Source: a virus
Strand: one strand, 5' to 3'
IMG/VR virus record: IMGVR_UViG_3300009610_000056
Location: 1-38,329 of that record
DNA length: 38,329 nucleotides
A program made the translations under genes and the position numbers. Position 1 is the stretch's first letter. Each line of letters begins with the position of its first letter. The notes under the pieces are model-generated. The model was given only the letters and a program-made list of their open reading frames with translations. It searched no databases and was not told the DNA's origin. This document shows positions 386 to 34,599 of the stretch, piece by piece.

Positions 386-729
386 GCAAGCGCAATCAGA
401 ACTTCGATATGTATATCGGTGAAAGCAAGGTGGTTTTCATCGCGCTCACCAATGCAGACGGCACGCCGTTCAATCCGGCTGGCGCGACGATGGAATGGTG
501 GTTGTCGCGGACTGTACATTCGGAAAAAACCATCAGGAAGACGCTTAGTTCGGGTCTCGCGATATCGCCGGGCGGTGTGAATATCATTCTTGAGTCGGAG
601 GATACCTACGACCTCAAGCCTGAAATTTGGTACCACGAACTAAAGATCACCATGCCAAGCGGGCTGTCGGTTGCGACGGTCGGCGCGGTGCATCTGCGGC
701 CCGCGCTGGATATGCGGGTGACTCCGTAA
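382..729 (+). CDS. Small beta-rich phage protein, paralogue of the 31615-31959 gene
   Basis: The product is 115 residues, starting at GTG 382 and overlapping the upstream stop by four bases. The sequence alternates hydrophobic strands (KVVFIALTNADGTPFNPAGA, TMEWWLSRT, GVNIILE, YHELKITMPSG, ATVGAVHLRP) and looks all-beta. The order 'strand, N/AGTPxN, G-x-T-M-E-W/M' is also seen in the 114-residue product at 31615-31959, so the two are probably paralogues. The fold resembles small N-terminal beta domains of phage baseplate or receptor proteins (BppU-like), but this is recognised by pattern only. Its stop overlaps the start of the giant gene (TAATG), so the two are likely translated together. 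Its exact role is unknown. Confidence 0.7.
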   Translation: MSKRNQNFDMYIGESKVVFIALTNADGTPFNPAGATMEWWLSRTVHSEKTIRKTLSSGLAISPGGVNIILESEDTYDLKPEIWYHELKITMPSGLSVATVGAVHLRPALDMRVTP

Positions 730-6389: not shown

Positions 6390-7249
6390 TGGCGATATAC
6401 AAGATCGACATTCTCGCCAAAGAGATCAAAGAGGAATTGCCCCATTGGCTTGACCCAAGCCAGAAGGATGACAAGGACTCGCCACAGCGTCAGGCGATCC
6501 GGGACAAGCACCGCGCCCGGTGGCTGGCTGAGCGAGACGCTAAGCGGGAAAAGAAATACTGGGCTTGGCTGATCGTGCGGGCCGACGCTCTCGGCCTGCG
6601 GCTTCGTGACAATCCGTCAGTGACGGACATCGCAGAGGCCGAACGGTTTCTCGGGATCAAGGACTGGGATGAGTCGAAGCATCCGCGCGATGACCGTGGT
6701 CGGTTCGGTTCGGGCGGTGGCGGCGCTGAAGAGGACGGTTCCGGTGCGGGCGTCAGCGAAGAAGGCGTGGACAAGTACGGCCTGAGCGCCAAGGATCGCG
6801 CACAGGTCTACGACTGGATGGGCAGCGGGTACCGGGAAATGCGTAGCGACCCGGCGTTCGGGAACGTAGTGGAAAAGATGCCGAAAGTTACCGGCCAGTT
6901 CTGGCGCGGCACGCGGATGACGCAGGAAACATTTACGCAGTACCAGACTGGCGTCGGCAGGGTTACCAAGCTGGAAAAGTTTTCCTCATCGAGTTCGAGG
7001 ATAGAGGACGCCAAGGAATTTATGGGCGGGTCGAGGCACGAGGATACCCATAAGGCGGTTCCTGTGCTTTTTGCTTTCAGGGGTTCTGGCCATAAAATAC
7101 CGAAACCGCTCGCTGAGGTCGCCGGGTCAGGCGATGAAAACGAGGTCATCCTTAAGATGGGAAAAACGTTCAAGATCGAGGATGTGAAGCCGGTGAAGGA
7201 CGACGAGTACGGCGAGTATTACCAGATCACGATGGCAGAAGCAGCATGA
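6389..7249 (+). CDS. ADP-ribosyltransferase-fold phage protein with HPRD linker
   Basis: 286 residues. ATG 6389 overlaps the giant gene's TGA (TGATG) and follows a GCGGAGGC ribosome site. Residues 1-90 are helical and charged. Residues 92-106 carry the tag DWDESKHPRDDRGRFG and a Gly-rich linker, the same tag type as at residue 745 of the upstream protein. The C-terminal half has the three marks of R-S-E ADP-ribosyltransferases: R173 in FWRGT, a serine run at 199-203 followed by a short helix, and E250-N-E252. Enzymes of this class transfer ADP-ribose from NAD to a protein side chain; an ExE pair usually means arginine targets. It could be delivered with the virion like T4 Alt or made after infection, and the target is unknown. 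Confidence 0.8.
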   Translation: MAIYKIDILAKEIKEELPHWLDPSQKDDKDSPQRQAIRDKHRARWLAERDAKREKKYWAWLIVRADALGLRLRDNPSVTDIAEAERFLGIKDWDESKHPRDDRGRFGSGGGGAEEDGSGAGVSEEGVDKYGLSAKDRAQVYDWMGSGYREMRSDPAFGNVVEKMPKVTGQFWRGTRMTQETFTQYQTGVGRVTKLEKFSSSSSRIEDAKEFMGGSRHEDTHKAVPVLFAFRGSGHKIPKPLAEVAGSGDENEVILKMGKTFKIEDVKPVKDDEYGEYYQITMAEAA

Positions 7250-7605
7250 ACAAAAGACTTTACGACGACGACATGGAGTGGATGTCGTTCGTTGATGAGG
7301 AGCCTCCAGTTCAGGAGAAGGGCGTTAAGCCCAAGGCGGACGAGAAGCCCGCAGAGAAGAAGGTCGAGGACAAAGGAGAAGCCCCGATGCCCTACTCCGC
7401 AATCGAAAAGCAGCGTATCTTGCTTCAGGCCAAGCGGGCGCTCGGTAAGCTGACCAAGCTGAAGAGCAGCGCCAGCGACAAGCGCATCTTCATCGATCAG
7501 TGCGTGGACTCGATGACCTCAAGCGGCGAGGCCGAGGATGAGGATGAGGCGAGGGATGTGTGCCTTTTATTGTGGGAAGAAGGCGAGGAGTACGCCGACT
7601 ATTAG
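7246..7605 (+). CDS. Small acidic head-region protein with helical Cys motif
   Basis: 119 residues, coupled to the upstream gene by an ATGA overlap. Residues 1-45 are rich in Lys, Glu and Pro and probably disordered. The rest is helical. The C-terminal part (FIDQCVDSM, ARDVCLLLWEE) has the pattern F-x2-C, about 20 residues, A-x-x-V-C-x3-W. The same helical-hairpin pattern begins the next protein (FVSACISARQ, AAACYAVWREK), so the two genes share a small module that is common at the N-termini of phage prohead proteases. The gene lies 12 bases upstream of the protease-capsid gene. It may act in head assembly, but no function is recognised. Confidence 0.7.
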   Translation: MNKRLYDDDMEWMSFVDEEPPVQEKGVKPKADEKPAEKKVEDKGEAPMPYSAIEKQRILLQAKRALGKLTKLKSSASDKRIFIDQCVDSMTSSGEAEDEDEARDVCLLLWEEGEEYADY

Positions 7606-7617
7606 GGGATTAGAGCC

Positions 7618-9753
7618 ATGCCAAGCCCATCAGAATATGAGAACGAGAGCGATTTCGTCTCCGCTTGCATCTCGGCGCGGCAGCACGAAAACCCCGATGA
7701 GGATACTGAACAGAGCGCCGCAGCGTGCTATGCAGTATGGCGTGAGAAGGGGGCCAAGCCCGTGATCCGTAAAACGCATGAGACCCTTGCCGTCGAGAAC
7801 ATGGAGTTCGTCCTGTCGGACGCGACGGTTGATCGGTACGGCGATAGTGTGGATTCGGGTGGCTGGGTCTTGAACGATTTCAAGAAGAACCCCATCGCGT
7901 TGTTCAACCACAACCCGGACTTCCCTATCGGTCGCTGGAAAGATATTAGCGTTCGCAACGGCGCGCTGCGCGGCCATCTTCAGTTGGCACCGAAGGGAAC
8001 GAGTCCGAGGATCGATGAGATCAGGGCGCTGGTCGATGCCGGTATCCTGTGCGCGACCAGCGTCGGCTTCCTTCCGTTAGAGGTCAGCCCGCGCACCAAT
8101 AAGTCAGGCAACGGAAATTTGTATTCCAAGCAAGTGCTGGTCGAGACCAGTCTGGTCGCGGTGCCAGCCAACCCCAATGCCCTAGCGATTGCGAAGTCGC
8201 TCAGGGTTTCCGGCGGAACGATGGAACTGGTCTTCGCCAAGCAAGGCGTCATGGGATCGGTGACAAAGTCTCACGGGTCAAACGGCAAGCCAGCCGAAAA
8301 CGGGACTACTCATAAAAGGACCATGACCATGGTTCCTATCAGTAAACGTATCGAAGAAACCGAGCAGCGGATCGTCAAGTATCAGGATGAACTCGACACG
8401 CACATGGCGACCGTGGACGACTCGAACCCCACGGAAGAGGCGCTGACCATCACCAAGGAACTGACCGAGAAGATCGAGAAGCAGCAGGCGTCCCTCGAAA
8501 GCCTTAAGAACGTCGAGGTGAGGCTTGCGACTGCGACGGTCAGGGCGAACATTGATACGAAGGCCAGCGGCAATGGCACCGGGACCGCCATGGTCGTTCA
8601 CAACGCTCGCCCGTTTGCGTACCCGGCCAAGAAGATCAGCCCGCTCGATCACCTCTGGCGCGGTGTGACCGTCGCGCTGAAGCACCACGATATGAAGAGT
8701 CAGCAGTCCATCTTTGACGTGCTGCGCTCGACCTATGGTGAGAACGAGTACAGTGAGCAGACAAGGGCGGTGATGGCCAACTTGGTCACGAAGGCGGCGG
8801 CGATTCCTGCCGACACCGTGACGACAGGTTGGGCCGTTGAACTGGTGCAGACTGTCATCGGGGACTTCATCGCGGCGCTGATGCCGCTGTCGATCTACCC
8901 GAAGCTTGCTGCCAAGGGAGGTTCGTTCACCTTTGGCCGCAACGGCACCATCTCGCTGCCTTCCCGCAACACGACGGCCACTGTTGGTGGAGCCTTCTTC
9001 CTTCAGGGTGCCGCGATTCCGGTGAAGCAGGGTGCGTTCACTGCGATCACTCTCACCCCCAAGAAGATGGGTGTGATCACCACGCTGACCCGCGAGATCA
9101 CTGAACACTCGACGCCCTCCATCGAGGGCATCGTGCGGCAGGCGATCTTGGAGGATACCGCTCTGGCGATTGATACCATATTGGTTGATGCCAACGCGGC
9201 GACGACCATCCGGCCCGCCGGTCTGAAGAACGGTGCGACGGTTGTCACGCCGACTGCTGGTGCCGGTATCACTGCGTTGATCGGTGATTTGAGGGGCCTC
9301 ACATCTTCTCTGATCACTGCCTCGAAGGGCAACCTTCGTGCTCCGGTCTGGATCATGAACCCCGGCGATGCGCTTGCGGCTCAGTTGACGCAGGCGGCTG
9401 CTGGCGGCGACTTCCCGTTCATGGACGACATCACGAATGGCACTTTGATGGGCTATCCGGTGATCACGTCCACGACGATTGCTCCGGACTCCATGATCCT
9501 CATGGATGCCGCCGACTTCATCAGCGCGACCGGCGATACGCCGCGCTTTGATGTCAGCGATCAGGCTGTTCTCCACATGGAGGACAGCAACCCGCAGCAA
9601 ATCTCCACGGTCGGTACCCCGGCCACGGTTGCTGCGCCGGTTCGTTCGCTGTGGCAGACCGACACCATCGGTATCCGCATGATCATGGATATCAACTGGG
9701 CCATGCGTCGGACTGGGATGGTTCACACCGTCACAACGATGACTTGGAACTAG
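7618..9753 (+). CDS. HK97-type prohead protease fused to major capsid protein
   Basis: 711 residues. Residues 1-45 form a small helical Cys motif. Residues 50-215 match HK97-family prohead proteases (NMEFVLSDATVDRYGDSVDS, LFNHNPDFPIGRW, CATSVGFLP, LVAVPANPNALA), with likely catalytic H98 and S148. Residues 238-340 contain a charged coiled coil of the type that serves as the scaffold (delta) region. From about 345 the sequence is an HK97-fold capsid protein (LMPLSIYPKLAAKGG, LPSRNTTATVGGAFF, PVWIMNPGDALA). In most phages protease and capsid are separate genes; here the frame is continuous. The protease should cut itself and the scaffold away during maturation. A strong ribosome site inside the frame suggests that capsid protein is also made alone. 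Confidence 0.93.
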   Translation: MPSPSEYENESDFVSACISARQHENPDEDTEQSAAACYAVWREKGAKPVIRKTHETLAVENMEFVLSDATVDRYGDSVDSGGWVLNDFKKNPIALFNHNPDFPIGRWKDISVRNGALRGHLQLAPKGTSPRIDEIRALVDAGILCATSVGFLPLEVSPRTNKSGNGNLYSKQVLVETSLVAVPANPNALAIAKSLRVSGGTMELVFAKQGVMGSVTKSHGSNGKPAENGTTHKRTMTMVPISKRIEETEQRIVKYQDELDTHMATVDDSNPTEEALTITKELTEKIEKQQASLESLKNVEVRLATATVRANIDTKASGNGTGTAMVVHNARPFAYPAKKISPLDHLWRGVTVALKHHDMKSQQSIFDVLRSTYGENEYSEQTRAVMANLVTKAAAIPADTVTTGWAVELVQTVIGDFIAALMPLSIYPKLAAKGGSFTFGRNGTISLPSRNTTATVGGAFFLQGAAIPVKQGAFTAITLTPKKMGVITTLTREITEHSTPSIEGIVRQAILEDTALAIDTILVDANAATTIRPAGLKNGATVVTPTAGAGITALIGDLRGLTSSLITASKGNLRAPVWIMNPGDALAAQLTQAAAGGDFPFMDDITNGTLMGYPVITSTTIAPDSMILMDAADFISATGDTPRFDVSDQAVLHMEDSNPQQISTVGTPATVAAPVRSLWQTDTIGIRMIMDINWAMRRTGMVHTVTTMTWN
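8314..8331 (+). promoter_or_regulatory. Internal ribosome binding site and ATG for capsid-only product
   Basis: AAAAGGA (8314-8320) lies eight bases before an in-frame ATG (8329) at residue 238 of the protease-capsid fusion; another ATG lies at 8323. The position is between the protease domain and the scaffold coiled coil. Starting there would give a 474-residue protein, a usual size for an HK97-type capsid precursor. This could supply the excess of capsid over protease that assembly needs. Seen: the site. Inferred: its use. Confidence 0.6.
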
Positions 9754-10762: not shown

Positions 10763-12177
10763 TGGCCAACTGGCTCGCCAAGATTGCCAGTCCGTTTATC
10801 GGCAAAGCCACGGAGGGTCAGCCTAAACCCGGCCCGTGGCTGTTGCCGGTGACGGGCGGCTGGCTTCCTGCGGATGTCGGCAGCAACTGGAATTGGTGGC
10901 AGCTTGGGTACGACGCTGAGAGTTATTCGCCGTCGGCGCTGGTCGAGGCTTGCGTATCGGCCTACTCGCAGACGGTGGCGATGTGCCCCGGCGACCACTG
11001 GCTGTCTACCGGCGACGGTGGACGTGAGCGGATCACGACCTCGGCGCTTTGCCGCATCCTGCGGAAGCCGAATGAATACCAGAGCATTTCGGATTTCCTG
11101 CTCAACGCGGTGCGGTGGCTTTACCTGAACGGCAACGCCTACGCGCTGTGCGAGCGCAACAGCCGGTACGAAGTCAGTGCCCTGCACTTGATGGACTCAC
11201 GCGCATCCGCGCCCATGGTGTCTGTGACCGGCGACGTGTTCTACCAGCTTAGCGGGAACGTGGTGACCGACAGGTTGATCGGTGATCAGCTTATTGTCCC
11301 AGCCCGTGACGTGCTGCACATCAAGTTGCAGACCAGCCGCTACGATATCCTGAAGGGCGAGAGTCCGCTGTGCGCGGTGGCTCGCGACATCGCGCTGACC
11401 GACAGCATGGTCGCGCAGCAATACAAGTTCTATTCCAATCAGGCCCGGCCCGGCGTCACGCTCTCGACCGACATGGTGCTGACCAAGGAGCAAGTTGAAC
11501 TGGTCAGGCAACGCTGGGACGAGCAGTCGAAGGGGCTTGGTGCCGGTGGCACGCCCATCCTGACCCAAGGGTTGAAGCCGGTTGCGATCCCTCAGCAGAA
11601 CGCAGAAGAGATGCAACTCGCCAACGTGCTGAAGCTGGCTGATCAGCGTATCGCCTTGGCGTTCCGTATCCCGTTGCAAATCCTAGGGTTGGGCGGCGGT
11701 TCCGGTGCGGCGACCGAAGAACTGATGCGGGCATGGATTGCGTCGGGCCTTGGCTTCTGTCTCAACCACATCGAGGAGTCCATTGGGTTGTTCTTCGGCC
11801 TCAAGGGACAGCCCGACGAGTACGTCGAGTTCGATACAAGGGCGCTGCTGCGGTCGGCTTTCGTGCAGCGCGTCGAGGGTTACACGCGCGGCGTTCAGGG
11901 TGGTATCTTCTCACCGAACGAAGCGCGAGCGGAATTTGAAATGCCGGAAGTTGAAGCCGGTGACGAACCCCGTGTCCAGCAGCAAGTTGTGCCGCTCAGT
12001 GCGGCGAATGCAATACCAGCGGCACCTCCAGCGCCCCCAGCGCCGTCGTCGCCGCCAGCGGCTGCTTCGGAGGAGGAGGCCCCGAAACCAGAATCGAAGG
12101 GCGTGACAGATGCCGATGAACTTGAACGCATCCGGCGATCTTTCTTCGCTTCCCAAGCCAGTAACCTCTCCATTTGA
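10762..12177 (+). CDS. Portal protein, HK97 family
   Basis: 471 residues. ATG 10762 overlaps the previous stop; a longer frame from 10600 runs inside that gene and is rejected. The sequence follows the HK97/phage-portal family: ALVEACVSAYSQTVAMCPG near the N-terminus, LLNAVRWLYLNGNAYALCER, DVLHIKLQ, ARDIALTDSMVAQQYKFYSN, and FRIPLQILGLGGGSGAATEE. The portal is the dodecameric ring at one head vertex through which DNA enters and leaves. The C-terminal 60 residues are a Pro/Ala-rich tail and a short charged helix. In most HK97-type phages the portal gene lies upstream of protease and capsid; here it is downstream, with no terminase in view. Confidence 0.93.
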   Translation: MANWLAKIASPFIGKATEGQPKPGPWLLPVTGGWLPADVGSNWNWWQLGYDAESYSPSALVEACVSAYSQTVAMCPGDHWLSTGDGGRERITTSALCRILRKPNEYQSISDFLLNAVRWLYLNGNAYALCERNSRYEVSALHLMDSRASAPMVSVTGDVFYQLSGNVVTDRLIGDQLIVPARDVLHIKLQTSRYDILKGESPLCAVARDIALTDSMVAQQYKFYSNQARPGVTLSTDMVLTKEQVELVRQRWDEQSKGLGAGGTPILTQGLKPVAIPQQNAEEMQLANVLKLADQRIALAFRIPLQILGLGGGSGAATEELMRAWIASGLGFCLNHIEESIGLFFGLKGQPDEYVEFDTRALLRSAFVQRVEGYTRGVQGGIFSPNEARAEFEMPEVEAGDEPRVQQQVVPLSAANAIPAAPPAPPAPSSPPAAASEEEAPKPESKGVTDADELERIRRSFFASQASNLSI

Positions 12178-13507
12178 GATGCTCGCTGCTGAGTTAGGTG
12201 CGGTCGCCGGTCGCATCGAACGGGAAGCGCACCTAAAGATCAACAACGCAATCACCGAGGCGAAGAACCAGCACATGGCGCTGGAGCTTCGCTTTGTCAG
12301 AATGGAAGAGATGCTGACCGGTGTGCAAAAGGAGTTGCGGGAGAAGCTTGCAACGCTGAAGGATGGCAAAGATGGACATGACGGTAAGGATGGGGCACCG
12401 GGCAAGGACGGCCAAGACGGAGTCGCCGGGCCGCGTGGTGAACCGGGGGCACCGGGAAAAGACGGAGCAGATGGCAGGAACGGCATCGATGGCAAGGCAG
12501 GGCCAGCCGGTGCGCGAGGGGCCATTGGCCTACAAGGTCTCCGGGGCCTTGAGGGGACGCCCGGCAAAAACGGCATCAACGGTGCGCCGGGCCTGAACGG
12601 CCAGCGCGGCGAACGTGGTGAGCGTGGTGAACGCGGTGCGCCGGGCATTGTCGGCAAGGACGGTGCTCCCGGCCTCAAGGGTGATAAGGGCGACACCGGC
12701 TTGCCCGGCATGATCGGTGAGCGCGGCCCGCCCGGCATCAACGGCAAGGACGGTTCGCCGGGCATTGTCGGTAAGGATGGCGCTCGCGGCGAGAAGGGTG
12801 AGCGCGGCGAAGCAGGCCCGCCCGGCATGGTCGGCAGGGACGGTGCGCCGGGCGCTCGCGGCGAGATGGGGCTTCAGGGCCTGCGCGGCATGAAGGGCGA
12901 TTCCGGCATCGACGGTTCTCCCGGCAGGGATGGCGTGATTGGGCCACGCGGCGAGCGTGGTGAGAAGGGCTTCGACGGGACACCCGGAAGGCTACCAAAG
13001 GTCAGGGCGTGGAAGGACGGCGTCTCCTATGACGGTGACGTGGTTACCTATGACGGCGGTCTGTACCAAGCGATGCAGGACACTTCGCGTGCGCCGAACG
13101 TCGGCTCGGACTGGGTCTGCCTCGCACGCTCCGGGTTGCCCGGCAAGGATGGCGTCGATGGCCGGTCGCTGACGATCAAGGGCACCTACAGCGACATGGT
13201 CGCGGACTACAAATACCTCGACGTGGTGACGGTCGATCACACTTGGCACGTCGCGCTGAAGGACAAGCCCGGTGCCTGTCCCGGCCCGGACTGGAAGGCT
13301 GGCCCCGGTATCGGCAGGACCGGCAAGCCCGGTGAGCGCGGTGAGAAGGGTGAGCGCGGCAAGGATGGACCGGCTGGTTTGGAGATCGTCGGCTGGGATG
13401 TTGACCGGAGAAGCTACATCCTTGCTCCCGTCATGAGCGATGGCAGTCGTGGGCCGCCGTGCTCGGTGCGTGATCTGTTTGATCAGTTTCAAATGGAGAT
13501 ACGCTGA
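12110..13507 (+). CDS. Collagen-like fibre protein with two small carbohydrate-binding-like modules
   Basis: 465 residues, starting at ATG 12110 (or 12116) inside the portal gene's end, a 68-base overlap. Residues 20-80 are a helical, probably coiled-coil region that could trimerise the chain. Residues about 84-293 are nearly uninterrupted Gly-X-Y triplets (GKDGHDGKDGAPGKDG and on). Two short aromatic modules follow: YDGDVVTYDGGLYQAMQDTS, which resembles small chitin-binding (CBM5/12-like) modules, and a related TYSDMVADYKYLDVV segment. A second short collagen run and a 40-residue tail end the protein. Its position between portal and connector genes suggests a head or neck fibre rather than a tail fibre. 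This is inferred from position only. Confidence 0.85.
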   Translation: MPMNLNASGDLSSLPKPVTSPFEMLAAELGAVAGRIEREAHLKINNAITEAKNQHMALELRFVRMEEMLTGVQKELREKLATLKDGKDGHDGKDGAPGKDGQDGVAGPRGEPGAPGKDGADGRNGIDGKAGPAGARGAIGLQGLRGLEGTPGKNGINGAPGLNGQRGERGERGERGAPGIVGKDGAPGLKGDKGDTGLPGMIGERGPPGINGKDGSPGIVGKDGARGEKGERGEAGPPGMVGRDGAPGARGEMGLQGLRGMKGDSGIDGSPGRDGVIGPRGERGEKGFDGTPGRLPKVRAWKDGVSYDGDVVTYDGGLYQAMQDTSRAPNVGSDWVCLARSGLPGKDGVDGRSLTIKGTYSDMVADYKYLDVVTVDHTWHVALKDKPGACPGPDWKAGPGIGRTGKPGERGEKGERGKDGPAGLEIVGWDVDRRSYILAPVMSDGSRGPPCSVRDLFDQFQMEIR

Positions 13508-16046: not shown

Positions 16047-16634
16047 GTGGCTGAGTGGGTTGTCTATTGGCTGCATGACGCCTACTGCATCTGCTTGCAG
16101 CAGCACGGCTATGTCGGCATCAGCGGCGCTTGGACGACAAGACTAGCGAAGCATCAACGCAACAAGCGCTTTCCGCCTAACTTCGAGTGGTCGATCATCT
16201 TCACCGGCACGAAGGCCGAGTGCTTGGCGATGGAGCATACGCTGCGACCGGTGCCGGGCGTCGGTTGGAATCAGGCGCAGGGCGGGAAGCCGGTTGTTGA
16301 GTTCACCTTGGAGGTGCGGGCGCGGATGAGTGCGGCGGCGCTGAAGCGGCGAACACCAGAGCAGAGAGCGGCTGAGTCGGCTGCTGCACAAGAGGCGAGG
16401 CGGTCTGGCGCGTGGAATGAGAAGTTGCGTAAGGCAAGCATGGGGCAAGTTCATAGTGAAGCGTCACGGCGTAAGCATAGCGCATCAACAATTGGTGTGC
16501 CGAAGTCTGAGGCACATCGTGCAGCGATGAGTGCCGCAGCAAAGATGCGCTACACGAAAGCAGGCGAGCGTGAAAGAATGAGTGAAGCTGTCAAAGCGGG
16601 CAAGGCTCGCATCAATCTCATGAAGGAGAAATGA
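16047..16634 (+). CDS. GIY-YIG homing endonuclease with NUMOD-type repeats
   Basis: 195 residues, GTG start two bases after the previous stop. Residues 5-80 fit a GIY-YIG nuclease: VVY (5-7) and YVG (22-24) replace the name motifs, R32 and H36 follow, a helix carries E63, and GWNQAQGG ends the domain. Residues 95-190 hold repeated short helices with S-E-A-x-R-R-K/A-x-S-A elements (SEASRRKHSAS, SEAHRAAMSAA), typical of NUMOD3-type DNA-binding segments. The gene splits the usual gp38-sheath pair and is more A+T-rich in its second half than its neighbours, so it is a selfish insert. Its end supplies the sheath ribosome site (AAGGAGAA) and overlaps the sheath start (ATGA). Confidence 0.85.
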   Translation: MAEWVVYWLHDAYCICLQQHGYVGISGAWTTRLAKHQRNKRFPPNFEWSIIFTGTKAECLAMEHTLRPVPGVGWNQAQGGKPVVEFTLEVRARMSAAALKRRTPEQRAAESAAAQEARRSGAWNEKLRKASMGQVHSEASRRKHSASTIGVPKSEAHRAAMSAAAKMRYTKAGERERMSEAVKAGKARINLMKEK

Positions 16635-18632: not shown

Positions 18633-18983
18633 ATGGCTGACGAACCTAAGGCCGACGCCACGGCTGAGACCAAGCAGGCCAACGGCGCGGCGACCGCCGA
18701 TATTGTGATCACGTTGCGTAAGCCGGTAATGGCACACGGCGACGAGATCAAAGAACTGCGTTTCCGTGAGCCGACGGCTGGCGACATCGAGAAGTGTGGT
18801 AACCCGGTTAGCCTCGATTTCAATTCCGGGGACACCCCGAAGATGTCGTTCGACACCAAGGCTATGTCTGCGATGATGTCAACGCTGGCTGCGGTGCCGC
18901 CATCGACCATCAGGCAGATGAACCCCCGTGACTGGAATAACGCGGCGTGGAACCTCGCAAGTTTTTTCATGCCGGACCTGTAG
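18633..18983 (+). CDS. Tail assembly chaperone, short form (Mu gp41-like)
   Basis: 116 residues, with GGAGGG before ATG 18633. After a charged leader, VITLRKPVMAHGDEIKELRF and REPTAGDIEKCG match gp41-type tail assembly chaperones (L-x-x-P-x-x-x-x-G-x-x-x-x-x-L-x-x-R-x-P-x-x-G-D). These coat the tape-measure protein while the tube forms. A perfect slippery heptamer near the end of this frame leads into a -1 frame extension, so this is the shorter and more abundant of two products. Confidence 0.88.
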   Translation: MADEPKADATAETKQANGAATADIVITLRKPVMAHGDEIKELRFREPTAGDIEKCGNPVSLDFNSGDTPKMSFDTKAMSAMMSTLAAVPPSTIRQMNPRDWNNAAWNLASFFMPDL

Positions 18984-19138
18984 AGGGGGTGATCCTTGAT
19001 TGCTACAGGCTGGCGAAATATTACGGTCGGCCCCCTGATGAATTTTTGACGTTGCCGCTTTCCAAAGTTAACCGTCACATGATGTGGACCGCGAAGCTCA
19101 TCGAGATGTCGCGAGAGCAGGAAGACGATGGCGGTTGA
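18633..19138 (+). CDS. Tail assembly chaperone, -1 frameshift product
   Basis: Ribosomes that slip one base back at 18962-18968 read 112 codons of the first frame and then continue with CAT at 18968 (HAGPVEGVILDCYRLAKYYG, then PPDEFLTLPLSKVNRHMMWT) to the TGA at 19136-19138, about 168 residues in all. The extension has no ribosome site or suitable start of its own and ends inside the tape-measure gene start. This two-product arrangement upstream of the tape measure is conserved in long-tailed phages, including Mu. Seen: the heptamer, the open -1 frame and the position. Not seen: the efficiency of the shift. Confidence 0.85.
18962..18968 (+). promoter_or_regulatory. -1 ribosomal frameshift site TTTTTTC
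   Basis: The heptamer T-TTT-TTC is in the correct phase for the first frame (codons AGT TTT TTC) and fits the X-XXY-YYZ rule. It lies 15 bases before the stop of the short form. No clear pseudoknot was worked out downstream. Confidence 0.88.
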
Positions 19139-20879
19139 TAAACGCATCGAACTCGAACTGGTGATCCGGGACACGGTCTCGCTCACGCTGAAGACCGTTG
19201 CCGACAATCTGGAGAAAATAAACAAGTCGGTTGGCAAGGTTGCTGGCGAAGGCGCTGGCAGCGAAGGCGCTGGCGAGACGTTCAAGAAAATAAAGGAAAG
19301 CACCGAAGGCATACGCAAGCTGTCGGAGGAGGGGGCGCAAGAAGCCACGGCACATGCCGAGAGAATACTGCCATTGGTTGCAAGGCTGTCTGGACCGGCT
19401 GGCAGGTTCGCTTTCGTGTTTGCTGCAACGGCGTTTGTAATGGATGCTGTCACCGGAGAGGTGAAAAAAAGTGTTGCGTTAAAGGCGCTGGTCGAGGACA
19501 CGGGGTTTCCGCAGCATTTTATTGACGTATTGCGACAGGCCCAGAAGAAACTGGGCATCGAAGACGGGGAGGCGGAAGAAAACATAAGGCGGGTCGGCAA
19601 CGCGATGAGCGAAATGGCCTTTGGCAAGGGCAGTTTGCTGGCCAAGGAACTGGATAGGATCGGGGAAGGCAATCTTGCAAAAACGATGGAGAATTTCGCC
19701 ATCGGTGGTGATCGCCAAGCCGGGACCATGGCGGCGATCAACCGCGTCACCGAACTCAACAAGGTTGCTGCTGCTGGTGGTCCCGACGCTCAGGAAGCCG
19801 CAAGGCAGGCGATAAGGATCGCGGATGCGTTGAAGATGCGGCCATCTTTCTTCAAGGATTTAACCGAGACGTTGAAAACCGTTCACCCATCCCAGCAAAT
19901 GGCGATTAAGGAAGTGAAGAGTTATTTCGCGGGCTACTGGGATTTCTGGACGGTGGTGGGCAATATATTCACAACGGTGAAGATGGGCGCGGTCGTGACG
20001 GCGAACCGGTACTTGGGTGTCGCTTCAGCGCTTATTGATGCTCACACCATGGTCATAGACCCACGCGCCCGTGAGGCTCGTGGACTCCCGCCGCTCACCG
20101 CAGCGGAGATCGAGGATTTCAAGAAGAGGAACGAAAACACGCTCGAACTCATGAAAGAAATACTGAGCATATTTCAGGGTGCTCAAAATAAGGAGTCCAT
20201 CGAGAAGCGCTGGGTCGGCGGATCGGTGCTGCCGGGGCGCTCGTACATGGTCGGTGAGAAGGGACCGGAAATGTTGTTTTCATCCGGCGGCTCGCAGATT
20301 ATCGGCGCTAGCGGTCCTGAGGTGATCAGGGCTGGCGAGAGCGGCAATATTGATACTTCGTCATTCGAGCGCTTCCGACGCCCACTGGGCGATGGCGGCA
20401 CTTCGTCCTTCAATGAGCGCTTCGGCTTTTGGCCGCAGTTTCGGCATACCCCAGAGGGGTATGTGGCGCAACCGCGTGAGCGGTTCGGTGGCGGCACCCC
20501 TGAGGAAAACTGGGAGGCTCTGAACAAAGCTCTGACCGGCGATTGGGGGGTTGGAGTCGGAATACCTGAGGGGCGAACCGATGATGTGACTGATCCAGAA
20601 AGGCCGTCGATCTTCGATCTTCGGATGAAAGAGCAGGAGTTTGAGGGACAGCAGAGAATATTTCCGCCTTCAGCGGAATTTGAGCCGCCATTTGGGCCGG
20701 AGACTGGTCATCGGATCAGTTCCCGCACCATGCTCGACAGAGAACTCGGTGGCGGCGGCGGATCGCTCGGCGCACAGATTATTTTCAATAACGTACCGGA
20801 AGGTGTCGAGACCAACGCCGAGGGCGAAGGCTTCGATAACTTCACGGTCAATAAGACCCGGCAGCTTGGGGCCATCTAA
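19128..20879 (+). CDS. Tape-measure-like protein 1
   Basis: 583 residues, ATG 19128 within the end of the frameshift product. The N-terminus (KRIELELVIRDTVSLTLKTV) is a paralogue of the next protein's N-terminus (KQVDIEVVLRDTASQTLRSI). A hydrophobic, Ala/Phe-rich segment at 85-110 (RFAFVFAATAFVMDAVTGEV) and a helical middle follow, then RSYMVGEKGPEMLF at about 370-383. This is the G-E-x-G-P-E motif common in tape measures. The last 200 residues are Gly/Pro-rich and poorly ordered. At 583 residues it is short for a tape measure; with the next protein the total would be close to usual lengths. It is assigned by position, motif and helix content. Confidence 0.75.
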   Translation: MAVDKRIELELVIRDTVSLTLKTVADNLEKINKSVGKVAGEGAGSEGAGETFKKIKESTEGIRKLSEEGAQEATAHAERILPLVARLSGPAGRFAFVFAATAFVMDAVTGEVKKSVALKALVEDTGFPQHFIDVLRQAQKKLGIEDGEAEENIRRVGNAMSEMAFGKGSLLAKELDRIGEGNLAKTMENFAIGGDRQAGTMAAINRVTELNKVAAAGGPDAQEAARQAIRIADALKMRPSFFKDLTETLKTVHPSQQMAIKEVKSYFAGYWDFWTVVGNIFTTVKMGAVVTANRYLGVASALIDAHTMVIDPRAREARGLPPLTAAEIEDFKKRNENTLELMKEILSIFQGAQNKESIEKRWVGGSVLPGRSYMVGEKGPEMLFSSGGSQIIGASGPEVIRAGESGNIDTSSFERFRRPLGDGGTSSFNERFGFWPQFRHTPEGYVAQPRERFGGGTPEENWEALNKALTGDWGVGVGIPEGRTDDVTDPERPSIFDLRMKEQEFEGQQRIFPPSAEFEPPFGPETGHRISSRTMLDRELGGGGGSLGAQIIFNNVPEGVETNAEGEGFDNFTVNKTRQLGAI

Positions 20880-23314
20880 TGGCTGACGACGACAAACAGG
20901 TCGATATCGAAGTCGTACTGCGGGACACCGCCTCGCAAACGCTGCGGAGCATCAGTCGCGAGATCGACAACATCAGCCGCAAGCTTACCGAGACCGGACG
21001 CAAGGGCTCTGACGCTCTTGGAAGAATAAGGGAAAAGGGAAGCGAGGCGGGCGTTGGTAGCGGTAAGGCAGGCGAGGGGGTCGATAAGTTCACCAAGTCC
21101 ATTACCGGACTGACCAACGCCTTGAAGGGGCCGCTCGGTCTCGCTGCTGCCTTTCTCGCTGTCGGCAAGTCGTTGTCGAGCTTTGCTCAGCAGCGCGTTG
21201 AGTTGTCGTTGCTGACGGCGGACATTGGTCTCACGACTGCAAAGATCGGAGAGTTGAAGCAACTCCTTTCAAGGAAGGGTGTCTCGGAAGAAGCGACCAA
21301 GCAGTTCATCACCAACATTGGCGGTCAGCTTCAAGATTTGCGAACGCGCGATGTCCACTCCGATTTCTGGCGTCGGATGGCGCTCTATGACGACCCCAAG
21401 CTCGGCGCTGGCTTACTGAGGTCAGTCAGGGAAGGCAACATCGATCAAGCGTTTGAACTGCTTATCGCCCATGTGCAGGAACTGAACGCCTTAGGCGAAA
21501 AGGGAAGGTCGCGTTCCGAATATTTTACCAAGTATGTGCTCGGCCAAGCCCCGTCACAGTTCACGGACTGGGAGGAATATCGCAGACAGTTAATCAAGAC
21601 CACCTCGCTCACTGAAGCCGAGGCGAAAAAGTGGAGGAAAGAAGAGGCTGACCTTGAGCACAGGGCGGAAGAAATCGGAAGGAGGGCCGCCAACTTCCTC
21701 ATCACGCAAACCAACAAGCTCAGCGATCACGTCAGAACTCGTTTGCAGACTCCCCGTGGCCTTGATGCGCTCTTTAACCCGACTATCGGCACTGGTGCTG
21801 GCACTGGCGCTGCGACACCCGGACCCCCCGGCGCTGGTGCTGACCCGACTCCCGGCCCCGGCACTGCCTCGCCCGGTACGACCGAACCCGGTTTGCGGAT
21901 TACGGTGCCGCCGCGTGGTCGCGGTGGTGGTGGCGGCGGGGGCGGCCAGAGCAGCCTTCCATTGAATATGCAGTTGGCATCCGCGCCGACACCGAAGGTG
22001 TTCGCTGATGCGTTCAAGGACGTGGGTGAGACGGAGAAGGAGACCAACCAGACGCTGATCAGCATCCGCGATATTTTGACTGATATGACCGGCGGCAACA
22101 AAAACTTGGTAGCGAGCCTTGGTGATTCTCCCACAAGTAGGAGCGGTCAGACTACTGGCGACCCAACTACTGGCGGTCCAACTACCGGCGGTCCAACTAC
22201 CGGCGGCGGTGCGCCGGGTGGTGGCCTCACCGATAAATCCGGCAAGGGGGTCGATCCTGTTACGGTGGGCCGACTACAAGAATTTGCGGCGCGTGGCGAT
22301 ACGGTCGGGATGCGGAGGCTGATGACTGCCAATGGATATCGGGTGGATAGCGCGTGGTGCGGCGATGTCACCCGTGTACTGGTAGGCGGGTCAGGTTTCC
22401 CGGTGCCGAAGGGGTACCCCATCGCATCGCAATGGCGAACCATAGGCGAGAGCATCCCCGGCGCTGGCATCAACGAGCCGGGCCGGTCGTTTGGCAGTCT
22501 GACCGCGACCAAGACCAACGTGCGGATCGGATCGACCGGAAGCCATGTTATGACCGTGGTGCCCGGCACCTACGATCCTAAGACCAACAGCGCGATCATC
22601 ATCGATACTGGCGGCAGGCGGCGGCGCAGCCTGAGCGGCTTCGATGTTCGCTGGGCTGGTAAGGAGGCTGAACAGCGGGCGGCAGCAGCGCGAGCGGGTC
22701 AGCCAAATGCTCCAATTGTCGTGCCCGGCGGGCCGCAGGGAACGCCGGTTCCCAGCTACGTCACCCCGAACCGTGATGCGGTGCCGGGTGGTACGCCACA
22801 GTCGGCGCGACCGGCGGGCGGGAGGACCGTTCGCGCATCGTGGTTCAATGACCGGGTCACGGCGTCTGGGAAGCCAGCATCCGTCCCCGGCATTGCGTTG
22901 CCAAGCCGGTCAACGCTGGGGCAGTGGTTCTATGTGCGCGACGAAAACACCGGGAAGGAGATTCTGACTCAGCAGACTGATGTTGGCCCGGCGAAGTGGA
23001 CGAAGCGCGGCATCGATATCAATGCGCCGTTGGCGAAGGAGTTCGGCTATCCTTCGATGAAGTCGTTCCCGACCGACACGAATTTCTCGTATCGGCCAGC
23101 CCTCGATAGAGCCAACAGTAGAGGCGGCGGCCCTCAGTCATCTCGCCGCGATGGCAACGTCAAGGCGAGCGTGGACTTCGGCGCGATGCAAAGGGTGAAG
23201 GAGGCTGGCGAGATTTTCCTTCCACTTAGGACAGCGGGTTTCTCTCAAGGGTCGTCCGTGCATCGCAACGCGGTGCTCCCCGGCAGTTCTGATTACACCA
23301 GATGGACCGCCTAA
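20879..23314 (+). CDS. Tape-measure-like protein 2 with cysteine-peptidase-like and double-psi barrel domains
   Basis: 811 residues, coupled by TAATG. Residues 1-300 are helical, starting with the paralogous VDIEVVLRDTASQTL motif, and include a hydrophobic segment (LKGPLGLAAAFLAVGKSLSS). A Pro/Gly/Thr-rich linker contains repeated TTGGP units. Residues about 480-600 look like an NlpC/P60-type cysteine peptidase: C494 in WCGDVTRVL, H556 in GSHVMTVVPG, then IIIDTGG. Residues about 650-745 form a double-psi beta barrel (RASWFNDRVTASG, TDVGPAKWTKRGID with D701 and D713, FPTDTNFSYR), a fold that cuts or binds peptidoglycan. The protein probably helps the tail breach the cell wall. Which of the two genes sets tail length cannot be told from sequence alone. 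Confidence 0.8.
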   Translation: MADDDKQVDIEVVLRDTASQTLRSISREIDNISRKLTETGRKGSDALGRIREKGSEAGVGSGKAGEGVDKFTKSITGLTNALKGPLGLAAAFLAVGKSLSSFAQQRVELSLLTADIGLTTAKIGELKQLLSRKGVSEEATKQFITNIGGQLQDLRTRDVHSDFWRRMALYDDPKLGAGLLRSVREGNIDQAFELLIAHVQELNALGEKGRSRSEYFTKYVLGQAPSQFTDWEEYRRQLIKTTSLTEAEAKKWRKEEADLEHRAEEIGRRAANFLITQTNKLSDHVRTRLQTPRGLDALFNPTIGTGAGTGAATPGPPGAGADPTPGPGTASPGTTEPGLRITVPPRGRGGGGGGGGQSSLPLNMQLASAPTPKVFADAFKDVGETEKETNQTLISIRDILTDMTGGNKNLVASLGDSPTSRSGQTTGDPTTGGPTTGGPTTGGGAPGGGLTDKSGKGVDPVTVGRLQEFAARGDTVGMRRLMTANGYRVDSAWCGDVTRVLVGGSGFPVPKGYPIASQWRTIGESIPGAGINEPGRSFGSLTATKTNVRIGSTGSHVMTVVPGTYDPKTNSAIIIDTGGRRRRSLSGFDVRWAGKEAEQRAAAARAGQPNAPIVVPGGPQGTPVPSYVTPNRDAVPGGTPQSARPAGGRTVRASWFNDRVTASGKPASVPGIALPSRSTLGQWFYVRDENTGKEILTQQTDVGPAKWTKRGIDINAPLAKEFGYPSMKSFPTDTNFSYRPALDRANSRGGGPQSSRRDGNVKASVDFGAMQRVKEAGEIFLPLRTAGFSQGSSVHRNAVLPGSSDYTRWTA

Positions 23315-23315
23315 G

Positions 23316-24563
23316 ATGGCTGATGATGTTGTCGAGCTACCAGAGGTCACTGTCAAGGGAACGACACAAGCAGAGGTGCCGCTTCCACGTCCTAATCCAC
23401 TGCGGGCCTTTGGGTACAGCAGCGATAATCTGTCATGCGTCCTCGAAATCAACGGCCAGCTTTACCGGGACTGGGAAACCGTGTCGGTGAAGGTGCAAAT
23501 GATCGAGACCCCTCATCGCATTTTTCGCTTTACTTGTTCCGAAGGAATGCCGCTAGTCAAGAATTACGCGGCGCTGCGTATCCGGCCCGGCGATATTTGT
23601 CTGGTTAGGCTTGCCGGTATCCCTGTCGTTTATGGCTATGTGTCGTCGCGGCAAGTGTTCTACGACGCCCACCGGCATCACATTGAAATTCAAGGCAGCG
23701 GCAAGACCGAGAACCTTCAGCATGCCGGGGTCGCCTCCAAAACGATGGAGTGGAAGAACGTCACTTACGAACAGTTCGCCCGCTCCCTGTTGAAGCCGGT
23801 GCTTCCGAAGATGAATTTTATTGTTAGGGGCGGGCAGCTACCGCAGATTAAATTTCCTCGCATTTCTATCCCGCACGGCATGTCGATTATGGAGGCGCTG
23901 GAGTTGCCGCTGCGGGCTTTGGGGAACGTCAAGTTCGGCAGCACCCCTATGGGCGATCTGGTCGCGAACGTCGGCCTGCCCTCAGGCGAGGGGGACGTTG
24001 TGGTTGAAGGTAAGAACATTATCGAGGGCCGCGAGATCATCTTCAACTCGCACATGGCTGACAAGGTGATCACGTCCGGTCAACGTCCCGGCAACAACAC
24101 GTCGAGCGGCCCTGATGCCGCTCAGATAAAGGTTAATAAGTTGATCGAAGGCTTGAATATGTATCGGCCACAGATCATTCCGCTTGAGACTCCAGCCTTC
24201 ACCGAGAACCATCTCAAGGGTCGTGGAAACATGGAGCACGACACTATGGCGAACGATCAAGTCACGGTGTTCGCGACGGTGCATGGCTGGCTGAAGCCAA
24301 GCGGTGGGCTGTGGGAGGAAAACCAGCCTGTCCGTGTTATCTCACCGATGCTGATCATGGATGGATCGGAAAAATTAACGTCCAAGTCAGTGACGTTCAC
24401 GCAGGACAACGCACATGGTAGCCGCACTGTTCTGGAGTTGATGAACGACACGGCGATGCGTGCGGGCGTTCCGGCTGACCCAAGATCAGCAGCAGCAGCA
24501 GCCGCCGCCGCCAGCACCGGCACCGATTTTTTACCAGCGGCTAATCCACCAACGGATATTTGA
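23316..24563 (+). CDS. Baseplate hub protein (Mu gpP/gp44-like)
   Basis: 415 residues, starting one base after the previous stop. The sequence follows the gp27/gpP hub fold: LSCVLEINGQLYRDWETVSV, then CSEGMPLVKNYAALRIRPGD, and GSGKTENLQHAGVAS with a helix that follows. The later part (VVVEGKNIIEGREIIFNSHM, PVRVISPMLIMDG) closes the second barrel. The hub trimer connects the tube to the spike. The C-terminal 30 residues are Ala-rich and disordered. The gene lies just before the gp45-type spike, as in Mu. Confidence 0.88.
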   Translation: MADDVVELPEVTVKGTTQAEVPLPRPNPLRAFGYSSDNLSCVLEINGQLYRDWETVSVKVQMIETPHRIFRFTCSEGMPLVKNYAALRIRPGDICLVRLAGIPVVYGYVSSRQVFYDAHRHHIEIQGSGKTENLQHAGVASKTMEWKNVTYEQFARSLLKPVLPKMNFIVRGGQLPQIKFPRISIPHGMSIMEALELPLRALGNVKFGSTPMGDLVANVGLPSGEGDVVVEGKNIIEGREIIFNSHMADKVITSGQRPGNNTSSGPDAAQIKVNKLIEGLNMYRPQIIPLETPAFTENHLKGRGNMEHDTMANDQVTVFATVHGWLKPSGGLWEENQPVRVISPMLIMDGSEKLTSKSVTFTQDNAHGSRTVLELMNDTAMRAGVPADPRSAAAAAAAASTGTDFLPAANPPTDI

Positions 24564-31614: not shown

Positions 31615-31959
31615 ATGTCCATCGTCAACATCACTGTCACCAATGACTCCGATTTCTATCGGACGTTCATCTGGAAGACAGTTGCTGGAGTGCCGATCAA
31701 CCTGACCGGCGGCACGATGGAAATGATGTTGCGGCGACGTGCGGAGGACATCACAGCGTTGATGCGCCTTGCCACCGACACCGGAGAGATCGTGCTGGTC
31801 AATCCAACGGCTGGTGCGTTCACCGTGCGGATTACTCAAGAGGCGCTTGAACGCCTTGGGCTAGGCGAGTTCGAGCATTCCAACATTTTTACACAGGGCG
31901 ATTCCAAAATCCGCATCTGGTCAGGCAGCTTCATTAACAATGCTGGACCGACGCGATGA
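31615..31959 (+). CDS. Small beta-rich phage protein, paralogue of the 382-729 gene
   Basis: 114 residues, with AAGAGGA before ATG 31615. Strands NITVTNDSDFYRTFIWKTVA, then GVPINLTGGTMEMMLRRRAE, and GAFTVRITQEALERLG follow the same plan as the product of 382-729. The family resembles small beta domains of phage baseplate and receptor proteins (BppU-like). It lies among receptor-binding genes and overlaps the collagen-like gene (ATGA). Role unknown; it may be an adaptor or assembly partner for fibre parts. Confidence 0.7.
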   Translation: MSIVNITVTNDSDFYRTFIWKTVAGVPINLTGGTMEMMLRRRAEDITALMRLATDTGEIVLVNPTAGAFTVRITQEALERLGLGEFEHSNIFTQGDSKIRIWSGSFINNAGPTR

Positions 31960-32204
31960 GCGATGTGACGGTCACACCGTTTGACTCTATTGAGGTCAGC
32001 GGCACCGATCAGGATAACGATACCGTTGTCGTGCTGTCGGATTTTATCCCAGCAGTGGGGCCACCGGGGCCAACGGGGCCGACTGGAGCAACAGGAGCGA
32101 CGGGGGCGACCGGGCCGCCCGGCCCTTGGACGCAAATTACGCAGGCGTCGTATGACGCGCTATCGCCACCCAACCCCAGCACCCTCTATGTAATTGTAGG
32201 TTAG
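31956..32204 (+). CDS. Short collagen-like protein with phage C-terminal tag
   Basis: 82 residues. The N-terminus is a small beta strand region (TVTPFDSIEVSGTDQDNDTV). A collagen stretch of eight or so Gly-X-Y triplets follows ([20 protein letters not shown]), and the end reads WTQITQASYDALSPPNPSTL then YVIVG. That Y-D-A-L-x-x-x-x-x-x-T-L-Y-V-I/V tag is common at the ends of collagen-like phage fibre proteins. It is probably a short fibre or linker part of the receptor-binding apparatus. Confidence 0.72.
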   Translation: MSDVTVTPFDSIEVSGTDQDNDTVVVLSDFIPAVGPPGPTGPTGATGATGATGPPGPWTQITQASYDALSPPNPSTLYVIVG

Positions 32205-32209
32205 GTGCA

Positions 32210-32977
32210 ATGGCGCTCCTCAACGAAGCAGACGCGATCTACCTCGGCGGCGCGGCGGTTGATGCGGTCTACGCTGGTGCGGAAAAGGTGTGGCCCCCGT
32301 TCGTGCCGACAATCATTGCCGGTCTTGATATTTGGCTCGATGCCTCGCGGGTTGGGCTTGCCGATAATACGCTGATGACAGAGTGGCCGAACAGCGGTTC
32401 GGGCTTGGACCCAAGCATCGTTGACGCTGGCACCGGCCCCTATATGAAAACCAACATTCTCAATGGATTGCCGGTTGTCCAGTTTCACGCAGGCGGCGGG
32501 CGGGTGCGCGGGCGGCGGGCAGTCTCAAGCCCAACTTACACTGTGATCTATGTTGTTCGACGGCGAGGCCCAAACCTTGGGCGGGCATTCTCTTCGATCT
32601 ATCCGGCTGGCAATAACTATGTCCTTGGCTTCCACGCCAACAATCAGGACTGGATGTATGACAACGGGAACGTGAACTCCGGTGCGGCTTGGGGATCGTG
32701 GCCCGGCCCGTGGAAGATGTACGGGGCAGACGCGCAAGGTCCGCTCGGCGGATCGTATCAGCCACGGTTTTTCTTGAACGGTGTTCTGATTGGTACGCAT
32801 ACGGCTGGCACTGGGCTAGGCTTCAAAGATTTGTATGCGCTGTCCGGGTATGAAGACGCTACAGCGGGTGAAACGATGGACTGCGATATCGCTGAACTGC
32901 TGATCTACGACACCAAGCTGTCCGATGCCAACCGCATCCTGTGTGAAGAATACCTCCGCGCAAAGTGGGGCATCTAA
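32210..32977 (+). CDS. LamG/concanavalin-like receptor-binding protein
   Basis: 255 residues, ATG 32210 five bases after the previous stop. A short N-terminal adaptor ([20 protein letters not shown]) precedes a jelly-roll domain: [51 protein letters not shown] and the last helix [18 protein letters not shown]. This layout is that of LamG-like phage proteins that bind sugars. The adaptor sequence 'Y-x-G-x-x-V-x-x-V-Y-x-G-x-x-x-V-W' is typical of phage tail proteins. It is likely a virion-surface protein. Confidence 0.78.
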
Positions 32978-32979
32978 TC

Positions 32980-34599
32980 ATGCCGGTCGAAGTCATCACG
33001 CTGGAAAGCGAGGTCGTCGTCATCGAGGCTCCAGATCAGGGGCCGCCCGGCGTGCAGGGGCCTATCGGCCCGCCCGGCCCTGAAGGGCCAGAGGGACCAG
33101 AGGGGCCAGAGGGACCGATAGGGCCTTCCGGTGGCCCAGTCGGCCCAGCGGGTCCGACAGGGCCACAAGGTATTCCCGGACCAACCGGCCCGACTGGCTC
33201 GACAGGACCGCAGGGTTCAATCGGCCCACAAGGTCCAGCGGGTCCGACAGGGCCGCAAGGCATCATCGAAGAAGCGCCGATTAACGGCACGGCCTACGGG
33301 CGCAAGGACGGTGCATGGGCCACAGTCGCCGCTGCTACCGCCTCAACGCTACCGTTTGTACCAGCCGGTGACGTTGCAGCGACCAACGTGCAGGCGGCGA
33401 TTGTTGAATTGGATACAGAGAAGGTCGCCAAGACTGGCGGCACCATGACTGGTGCGCTGACCATTCCTAATGGCACGGTCGGTGCGCCCTCGATCAACTT
33501 TGCCAGCGGTCTTGCTTACGGACTGTACTACGCAGGCTCAGCGGTTGGTGTTTCGGTTGGTGGTGCAAACAAGTTCACATTTGGTGCCGCGACTAACATT
33601 TCCGCAGTTGCTTTGACTGTTCCAGTTGGCACAACAGCGTCACCGAGCATAAACTTTAGCGGTGAAACCACGAGTGGCATTTCCCGCAATAGTGCTGGCG
33701 TTGTTTCTATGTCGGTGCTTGGCAATGAGATATTGAACTGGTCCGCAACGGCGGTCACCTCGACCAAACCAATCGTCCTGCCAGCCGATCCGGCCTCCGC
33801 GCTGCACGCCGCCACCAAGCAATACGCCGATCTAAAATTGCCGCTGACAGGCGGCACCCTCACGGGCGGGTTGACCCTGTCGGGTAGCGGGTTGGCAGTC
33901 GGCACCAATATGACTGTGGGCACCTCGATAGTGGCAGGCGGCAGGGTTCAATCCGGCGAGGTTGGTGGCGTCTTTGCAAATCCAACCACTTTTTTTGGCT
34001 TCAACGGTGACGGCACCAGCCGGAATTTTTATTTCAACAACGGCGCACAATTTCTTTACAACACAGGAAGCGCCGATCTCGTATGGTACGCCAATCCATA
34101 CACAGTGATGACGTGGCGATATTCCGACTACTCCATTATTATTGGGGGAAACGGCTATAAGCCGGGCGGCGGTGTTTGGGCCGATGCGTCTGATGCGCGC
34201 ATCAAGAATGTCGAGGGCGATTACACGCGCGGGCTGACTGAGATCGCGCAACTGCGCCCGGTTACTTATACGTTCAAGGGCAACGACACGTCCGTCCAAC
34301 CCGATCACATTATGACCGGCATTGCGGAGGATGACGCCAAGAAAACCAAGGAAGCCGTTGTCGTCCCCTACCCAAACAGCCCGCACAAGATGCCCGCAGA
34401 TAACGCCACCAAATACACCGGGCTGGTCGCTCAGGAGGTTGAGGCCGTCATCCCGGAAATGGTGACGAAGCGAGCCGCCTACATTGACGGAGTCGCGGTG
34501 ACCGATCTTCGTGACTTAGATACTTCGTCGCTGATCTTCGCGCTGGTGAATGCCGTTAAGGAATTGAAGGCGCGTGTCGAGGCACTGGAAACCCAATGA
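32980..34599 (+). CDS. Collagen-like tail fibre with S74 intramolecular chaperone
   Basis: 539 residues from ATG 32980; the GTG at 32965 lies in the previous gene. Residues 1-22 are a strand-rich leader, and residues 23-95 are collagen-like ([20 protein letters not shown] and [20 protein letters not shown]). The middle (about 110-390) is Ser/Thr/Gly-rich with repeated fibre-type motifs ([18 protein letters not shown]). Residues 402-539 are an S74 peptidase chaperone: DASDARIKN with likely nucleophile S404, [14 protein letters not shown], and the C-terminal coiled helix [20 protein letters not shown]74 domains cut themselves off once the trimer has folded. Confidence 0.9.

Follow-up and report, generated by a model that had tools for sequence, protein, structure and literature searches.

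The viral contig IMGVR_UViG_3300009610_000056, a record described as a soil phage and analysed here over its full 38,329 nucleotides (the window), carries two intact, consecutive open reading frames (ORFs) between its tail assembly chaperone and baseplate hub genes, the position of the tape measure protein (TMP), the presumed determinant of tail length. We call them T1 (19128-20879, plus strand, ATG start, 583 aa) and T2 (20879-23314, plus strand, ATG start, 811 aa); they meet in the junction TAATG. Sequence comparison supports an origin of this pair by duplication and specialisation, not by the splitting of one gene, and similar tandem pairs recur in related tail operons. On our leading, still tentative, reading T1 and T2 are complete paralogous TMPs of one operon that are loaded into the same contractile tail, and two different proteins may make up the tail ruler.

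The initial annotation of this DNA had proposed that both genes open with the same pattern, and the motif is indeed found at residues 8-21 of T1 (ELELVIRDTVSLTL) and residues 9-22 of T2 (DIEVVLRDTASQTL). The similarity exceeds chance, which shuffled-sequence controls led us to reject as an explanation: the Smith-Waterman score of T1 against T2 is 140, compared with a mean of 46.8 (standard deviation 6.0, maximum 72) for 300 shuffles. The score is 83 for the first 60 residues (maximum of 1000 shuffles, 50) and 67 for residues 61-300, a value reached by one shuffle in 1000; past residue 300 the score of 52 is no better than chance (129 of 1000 shuffles). BLASTP, using the identical T1 of the related locus L001 as query against a small database of window proteins, gave an expect value (E) of 8.8e-9 over 277 columns. 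The homology thus spans about 250 N-terminal residues, a shared tape module that covers residues 4-266 of T1 (19137-19925, plus strand) and residues 5-252 of T2 (20891-21634, plus strand), with 26% identity between the two.

The assignment of this family to TMPs comes from T2, which matches the profile phrog_2276 (tail length tape measure protein) at E 2.5e-8. T1 itself matches TMP families weakly (phrog_3779, E 0.21), and is assigned through its homology to T2 and through its orthologue L016_1, which matches phrog_2276 at E 1.4e-8 (L-numbers denote loci, with _1 and _2 for the first and second TMP gene). Neither protein matched a Pfam TMP family, and tblastn searches of cultured phages with T1, T2, L023_1 and L096_2 returned zero matches. 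The AlphaFold2 (AF2) models, of low to moderate confidence, share a layout of long helices, a compact helical part (about residues 111-250, with block values of the predicted local distance difference test, pLDDT, up to 91), a further long helix and mostly unstructured C-terminal regions, the exception being a peptidase-like domain in T2. The T1 model is mostly helical to residue 357 (mean pLDDT 53.6) and the T2 model to residue 289 (mean pLDDT 51.6). Each protein looks like a complete TMP, with a helical tape, a linker or cargo, and a C-terminal tail.

Beyond their tapes the two proteins differ. T1 has no recognised enzyme, and the best Foldseek match of its model among viral models, a 'phage tail lysozyme domain' protein at E 2.9e-3, fell short of the 0.001 cut-off. 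It contains the motif GEKGPE once (residues 376-381; 20253-20270, plus strand), within a stretch that matches phrog_30701, of unknown function, at E 1.1e-5; the G-E-x-G-P-E motif that had been assigned to the first gene is thus present there, but is not specific to first genes, as the second genes of L016 and L010 carry GERGPE. T2 instead carries a candidate wall enzyme at about residues 452-605 (22232-22693, plus strand), with a putative Cys494-His556-Asp576 triad conserved in 15/15, 15/15 and 14/15 of the aligned rows that have the domain. Residues 467-597 of the model superpose on Tse1 (VIA-align Z 8.0, 101 residues, 3.2 Å), and comparison with NlpC/P60 and CHAP enzymes gave Z values of 5.9-7.2; all of these Z values are borderline, and Foldseek with the T2 model returned nothing at E 0.001 or better, its matches lying at E 0.3 or worse. 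Because residues 452-605 matched neither Pfam (E up to 1) nor NCBIfam (E up to 0.05), we name the domain NlpC/P60-like without filing it as a member, and consider it a likely peptidase and muralytic cargo on the strength of its triad and borderline fold similarity. Of the wall-active domains first read into T2, this one is supported; a second, at about residues 648-745 (22820-23113, plus strand), resembles a double-psi beta-barrel (DPBB/RlpA-like) by eye only and was not supported by searches: it matched nothing in Pfam, NCBIfam, PDB sequences (best E 0.82) or phages, its sole counterpart among viral contigs was one identical partial copy, and nearly all of it is modelled below pLDDT 50.

Cargo varies across the family. 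The NlpC/P60-like domain is shared by L004, L008, L010 and L011 and by first or second TMPs of other pairs, while the orthologues L015_2 and L016_2 have a peptidase M23 in its place. In L015 the stretch of the first gene (4060-5799) that matches glucosaminidase in Pfam recurs in the second gene (5803-8286) at 57% identity, possibly as a cargo copied within one locus. Elsewhere the family carries phage lysozymes and VanY, with sub-threshold CHAP and M15 matches, and many members gave no enzyme match at all. In L001 (4767-6007) the T2 frame is divided into two ORFs, both matching the window protein at 100%; the break is either a sequencing error or a real frameshift.

Both proteins end in a C-terminal tail recognisable across the family, and here too they differ. 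The tail of T1 (20766-20876, plus strand) has the canonical loop, as NNVPEGV, and that of T2 (23153-23311, plus strand) has diverged from the NxPxG form. The loop, NAPxGT or NVPxGV, is typical of single TMPs: a regular expression applied to the last 110 residues finds it in 26 of 31 singles, and in 6 of 419 other 110-residue windows. Among 16 complete pairs, those of one clade not being independent, exactly one member has the loop in 12, both members in none and neither member in four (L035, L046, L082 and L135); L035_1 does have NNVPPGV by eye, its methionine falling outside the expression. Which gene keeps the canonical tail differs among lineages.

Tandem pairs extend well beyond the window. 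From a sheath search we kept the best 80 viral loci of a longer list and nine genome loci; since these were chosen by similarity to the window sheath, the counts are not population frequencies. With a long sheath match required and the window excluded, 25 of the 45 readable relatives have two adjacent TMP ORFs and 20 have one, four of the 25 (L028, L037, L057 and L086) being near-copies of others by sheath. On the sheath tree seven changes between the paired and single states are required. Pairs also occur in two bacterial genomes, L096 (Bradyrhizobium sp. SRL28) and L135 of the same genus. Such a sheath was found in 15 of 265 genomes of that genus, and among 17 further stretches one holds a pair (L135), 12 a single TMP and one an unassigned large ORF at the TMP position (L151), with L137, L141 and L145 not classed; the paired state is a minority in sequenced Bradyrhizobium genomes. 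All nine cultured Mu/SfV-like phages examined, out of 82 records with a related sheath, have one TMP, with a single large gene at the TMP position in SfV, PPF1, phiKM1, phiAP1, Mu, RR1-A, IPK (by ORFs), PBb001 and martha 12B12; RR1-A has an additional 555-bp ORF ahead of its TMP.

A tree of the N-terminal modules (82 rows, quick method, support by the Shimodaira-Hasegawa-like approximate likelihood ratio test, SH-aLRT) fits repeated origins. Pair members, of one locus or of one close clade, are neighbours in several separate places: L074 (100), L046 (97), L082 (95), L079 (89, with the single-TMP locus L059 next to them), L023/L026/L040 (98), the group running from L017 to L038 (99) and L010 (93, with a long-branch warning); the placement of L067/L096 and L081 is less clear. 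T1 groups with L003_1, L015_1 and L016_1 (99) and T2 with the second genes of those loci (92), so that on this tree the window pair is an older pair.

Two groups, of four and three loci, are the most informative. Over 300 residues the tape halves of these seven loci are 49-65% identical within a pair and 29-36% between the groups. The C-terminal halves are little alike within a locus, but those with the same cargo, compared across the groups, share 53-65% (alpha) or 33-40% (beta) identity, and the cysteine-peptidase cargo sits in the first gene of the L017-type group and in the second gene of L023/L026/L040. A tree constrained to unite the alpha-cargo tapes was rejected (log-likelihood 222 worse; approximately unbiased test p 5e-85), as was its beta equivalent (p 1.5e-4), the test groups being named by cargo, though after the N-module tree had been seen. 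Continuing homogenisation of a phage's two tapes was considered but is not borne out, first and second tapes of one phage being no closer than those of different phages. The simplest account would be that the tape gene duplicated once at the base of each group and that the two cargo types, the same in both groups, were fused on in opposite order; the single-TMP locus L031 fits it, diverging immediately outside the L017-type pairs (100/99). The overall pattern fits repeated duplication with traded cargo, the gene order being swapped between the two groups. One further locus, L040, has a sheath that goes with the L017-type phages and a TMP pair that goes with L023/L026, so the two genes of a pair may be exchanged together between phages.

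Both genes of a pair appear to be under constraint. Over the first 300 codons the nonsynonymous rate (dN) was below the synonymous rate (dS) in both members, in 10 of 11 comparisons (dS was not computable for L027_2/L035_2), several dS values being near saturation; for L023/L026 dN was 0.07 against a dS of 0.73 in the first gene and 0.06 against 0.49 in the second, and for the window and L003 0.49 against 1.54 and 0.28 against 1.17. The junctions are tight: 28 of 29 listed pairs fall between -20 and +7 nt (L072 is at -43) and 13 of 29 overlap by exactly 1 nt, counted with near-copies included, with the first in-frame start codon taken as the start, and for TMP pair junctions only.

Virion incorporation, co-assembly, coupled translation, contact between C-tail and hub, and enzyme activity are inferred in the following proposed scheme. 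T1 and T2 would both bind the same chaperone, and the tube would polymerise around a lumenal bundle containing the two proteins, their N-terminal helical halves occupying the lumen and setting tube length. These halves would most likely lie side by side, perhaps as a mixed bundle. T1 would retain the ordinary C-terminal tail that docks on the hub, with the T2 tail altered; both proteins would then be ejected, and the NlpC/P60-like peptidase of T2 would cut peptidoglycan. PMC11329794 describes a contractile system whose full-length TMP forms a coiled-coil trimer, its C-termini on the spike and its N-termini at the collar; the same text describes TMP bundles as trimeric in some cases and suggests six-fold features for Pam3. 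A mixed bundle is physically plausible because such trimers are known and six-fold features have been suggested. In a more specific form, which we hold to be possible though on the doubtful side, the ruler would combine two paralogous tapes in one hetero-oligomer (3+3 round a threefold hub, for instance, or a mixed trimer), in which one subunit class has the canonical hub-docking tail and the other occupies a non-equivalent place; one virion would thereby deliver two cargo domains, and pairs would have arisen several times, with cargo traded between groups in either order.

Several observations weigh against a shared ruler or limit the evidence for it. In the AF2 models, both of them weak overall, the helical stretch ends at residue 357 in T1 and at residue 289 in T2. 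First and second tapes of the same phage are 60-65% and 49-61% identical in the two groups, those of different phages 55-64% and 53-61%, and first tapes resemble the first tapes of other loci more (64-74% and 69-89%); these values give no sign of matching between the two tapes of a phage, and one argument that the tapes touch each other is thereby lost. A length-matching comparison of 17 within-locus pairs with 579/581 between-locus pairs, read by identity band, found smaller length differences within a locus at 30-40% identity (three pairs only) and not at 50-70%. The C-tail pattern was composed after the tails had been viewed. Finally, the window pair is diverged, with its 26% identity in the N-module, so most of the evolutionary evidence comes from relatives.

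The initial annotation had offered a tape either duplicated and then specialised, or split. The former is supported by the common tape module, the unlike C-terminal halves, a dN below dS in both genes and the same layout in many relatives. Two consecutive pieces of one ancestral TMP gene, acting end to end, would suit ORFs that are adjacent and overlapping, but we rejected this scarcely credible alternative: it is contradicted by the N-module common to both genes, each of which also has its own C-terminal tail, and relatives with a single TMP have complete proteins of about the length of one member, 666-1022 aa (24 ORFs, near-copies included) against a sum of 1394 aa for T1 and T2. We also give little weight to a duplicate that is neutral or in decay, or to an artefact of assembly, a reading that seems very improbable; the relatives are mostly metagenomic contigs and the T2 frame of L001 is broken relative to the window, but pairs stand in the two bacterial genomes as well as in many contigs, and dN is below dS in both members.

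The more serious competitor holds that one gene is the length ruler and the other an accessory ejected protein, a tail-tip lysin with a tape-derived packaging domain, that rides in or below the lumen. That T2 has a peptidase-like domain and T1 no recognised enzyme, that at most one member per pair has the canonical C-tail pattern, and that the tape halves of the window have diverged, with tapes not matched within a phage, all speak for it; we nonetheless rate it as possible, not probable, as the tape halves of seven loci are still 49-65% identical over 300 residues, both tapes appear constrained, and the position that keeps the canonical tail varies by lineage. It is also conceivable, if rather improbable, that each tail takes either T1 or T2, yielding mixed particles with different wall enzymes. 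By anatomy both are complete TMPs, and the C-terminal halves within pairs are unlike, but the tight gene junctions favour co-synthesis, and the member without the canonical C-tail may no longer anchor alone. We retain co-loading of two complete tapes as our tentative preference.

T1 and T2 are embedded in a Mu/SfV-type contractile tail operon with kin among Bradyrhizobium prophages. Profile matches (Pfam, PHROG) identify a tail sheath (phrog_165, E 4e-149), a tube (phrog_185), the chaperone, a Mu gpP/gp44-like hub and then gp45-, circularisation-protein- and J-like baseplate genes. The window sheath is 37-41% identical to those of Mu/SfV and 53-56% identical to those of six Bradyrhizobium prophage loci, and because of the latter the host is likely a Bradyrhizobium-like bacterium. 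The short form of the chaperone (gpE/gp41-like, Phage_TAC_7; 18633-18983, plus strand) matches PF10109 at E 3.9e-13 and phrog_166. Its putative -1 frame extension (18947-19138, plus strand), read from an in-frame slippery T TTT TTC at 18962-18968 and the overlapping ORF, terminates within the start of T1; of 84 chaperone ORFs, counted with near-copies, 82 have an in-frame X XXY YYZ heptamer, and the remaining two (L034 and L055) are truncated at the end of their locus. The hub (23316-24563, plus strand; PF21683, E 6.7e-11; phrog_177, E 1.4e-38) is likely the partner of the TMP C-termini. Directly 5' of the sheath gene lies a small ORF (16047-16634, plus strand) that looks like a GIY-YIG homing endonuclease by eye only, without a Pfam match, and of which L002 has a shorter, 187-aa variant.

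Other parts of the window also drew attention. Upstream of the capsid gene, a 1920-aa ORF (627-6389, plus strand) contains repeats of a KHTPGGHEHDQxSH segment together with two domains, a pyridine-nucleotide-disulphide oxidoreductase at aa 160-447 (PF07992, E 6.9e-31) and an anti-CBASS Acb1 at aa 1093-1237 (PF23474, E 5.5e-44), the latter possibly an anti-defence enzyme inside a large multidomain protein that may be packaged. A 711-aa ORF (7618-9753, plus strand) joins prohead protease (S78) and capsid (Phage_capsid) matches. A 465-aa collagen-repeat protein (12110-13507, plus strand; PF01391, E 4.4e-38) lies in the head/neck part of the operon, with collagen-like stretches visible by eye in two more ORFs (31956-32204 and 32965-34599). 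An endolysin-like protein (35445-36539, plus strand) matches Amidase_3 (PF01520, E 9.6e-22) at aa 147-309; its additional N-terminal region matches no Pfam family.

To our knowledge, the usual view of the TMP is of a single gene whose product forms a homo-oligomer, and we recognised no earlier account of tandem paralogous TMP genes among the open-licence PMC papers listed in our searches. If the recurrent two-gene tape is true, the stoichiometry of the tape, its fit to a threefold hub and the way in which measuring and wall cutting are shared out would all become open to genetics; as a rule for annotation, where the chaperone is followed by two large neighbouring ORFs, both may be tapes. Related descriptions concern other situations: PMC3271669 treats duplications of repeat units inside one TMP, and the 'two tape measure proteins' of the SuMu paper are database homologues of peptides and are not stated to be a gene pair.

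The gene order of the window, with sheath, tube, chaperone, TMP, and then hub and baseplate, is that of Mu (gp42) and SfV (orf14), which have a single TMP gene where the window has two paralogues; the homologue of the circularisation protein follows gp45 in the window and comes directly after the TMP in Mu/SfV. Wall enzymes on tapes have precedents, as TM4 and phiIPLA35 reportedly have TMPs with built-in wall hydrolases. The T2 domain is like NlpC/P60, CHAP and Tse1-like cysteine peptidases in its superposition and its Cys-His-Asp residues, and differs from them in lacking a Pfam or NCBIfam match. Like T2, gp95 of phiCbK carries a peptidoglycan enzyme (a CHAP domain) on a tape, proposed in a passage of PMC3556154 to act after ejection; in such phages a lone tape bears the enzyme, whereas in the window it sits on one of two tapes, with cargo that differs among relatives. 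The diffocin TMP CD1366, as a section of PMC11329794 presents it, likewise has a helical tape, a compact lumenal domain predicted to consist of short helices, and a C-terminus at the spike, but is a homotrimer from one gene where the window has two. The TMP locus of ICP1 also contains more than one ORF, its tape being divided by an HNH endonuclease gene in the account of PMC9040626; there, however, one tape is interrupted by a probable intron, whereas the window holds two full paralogues, each with both ends.

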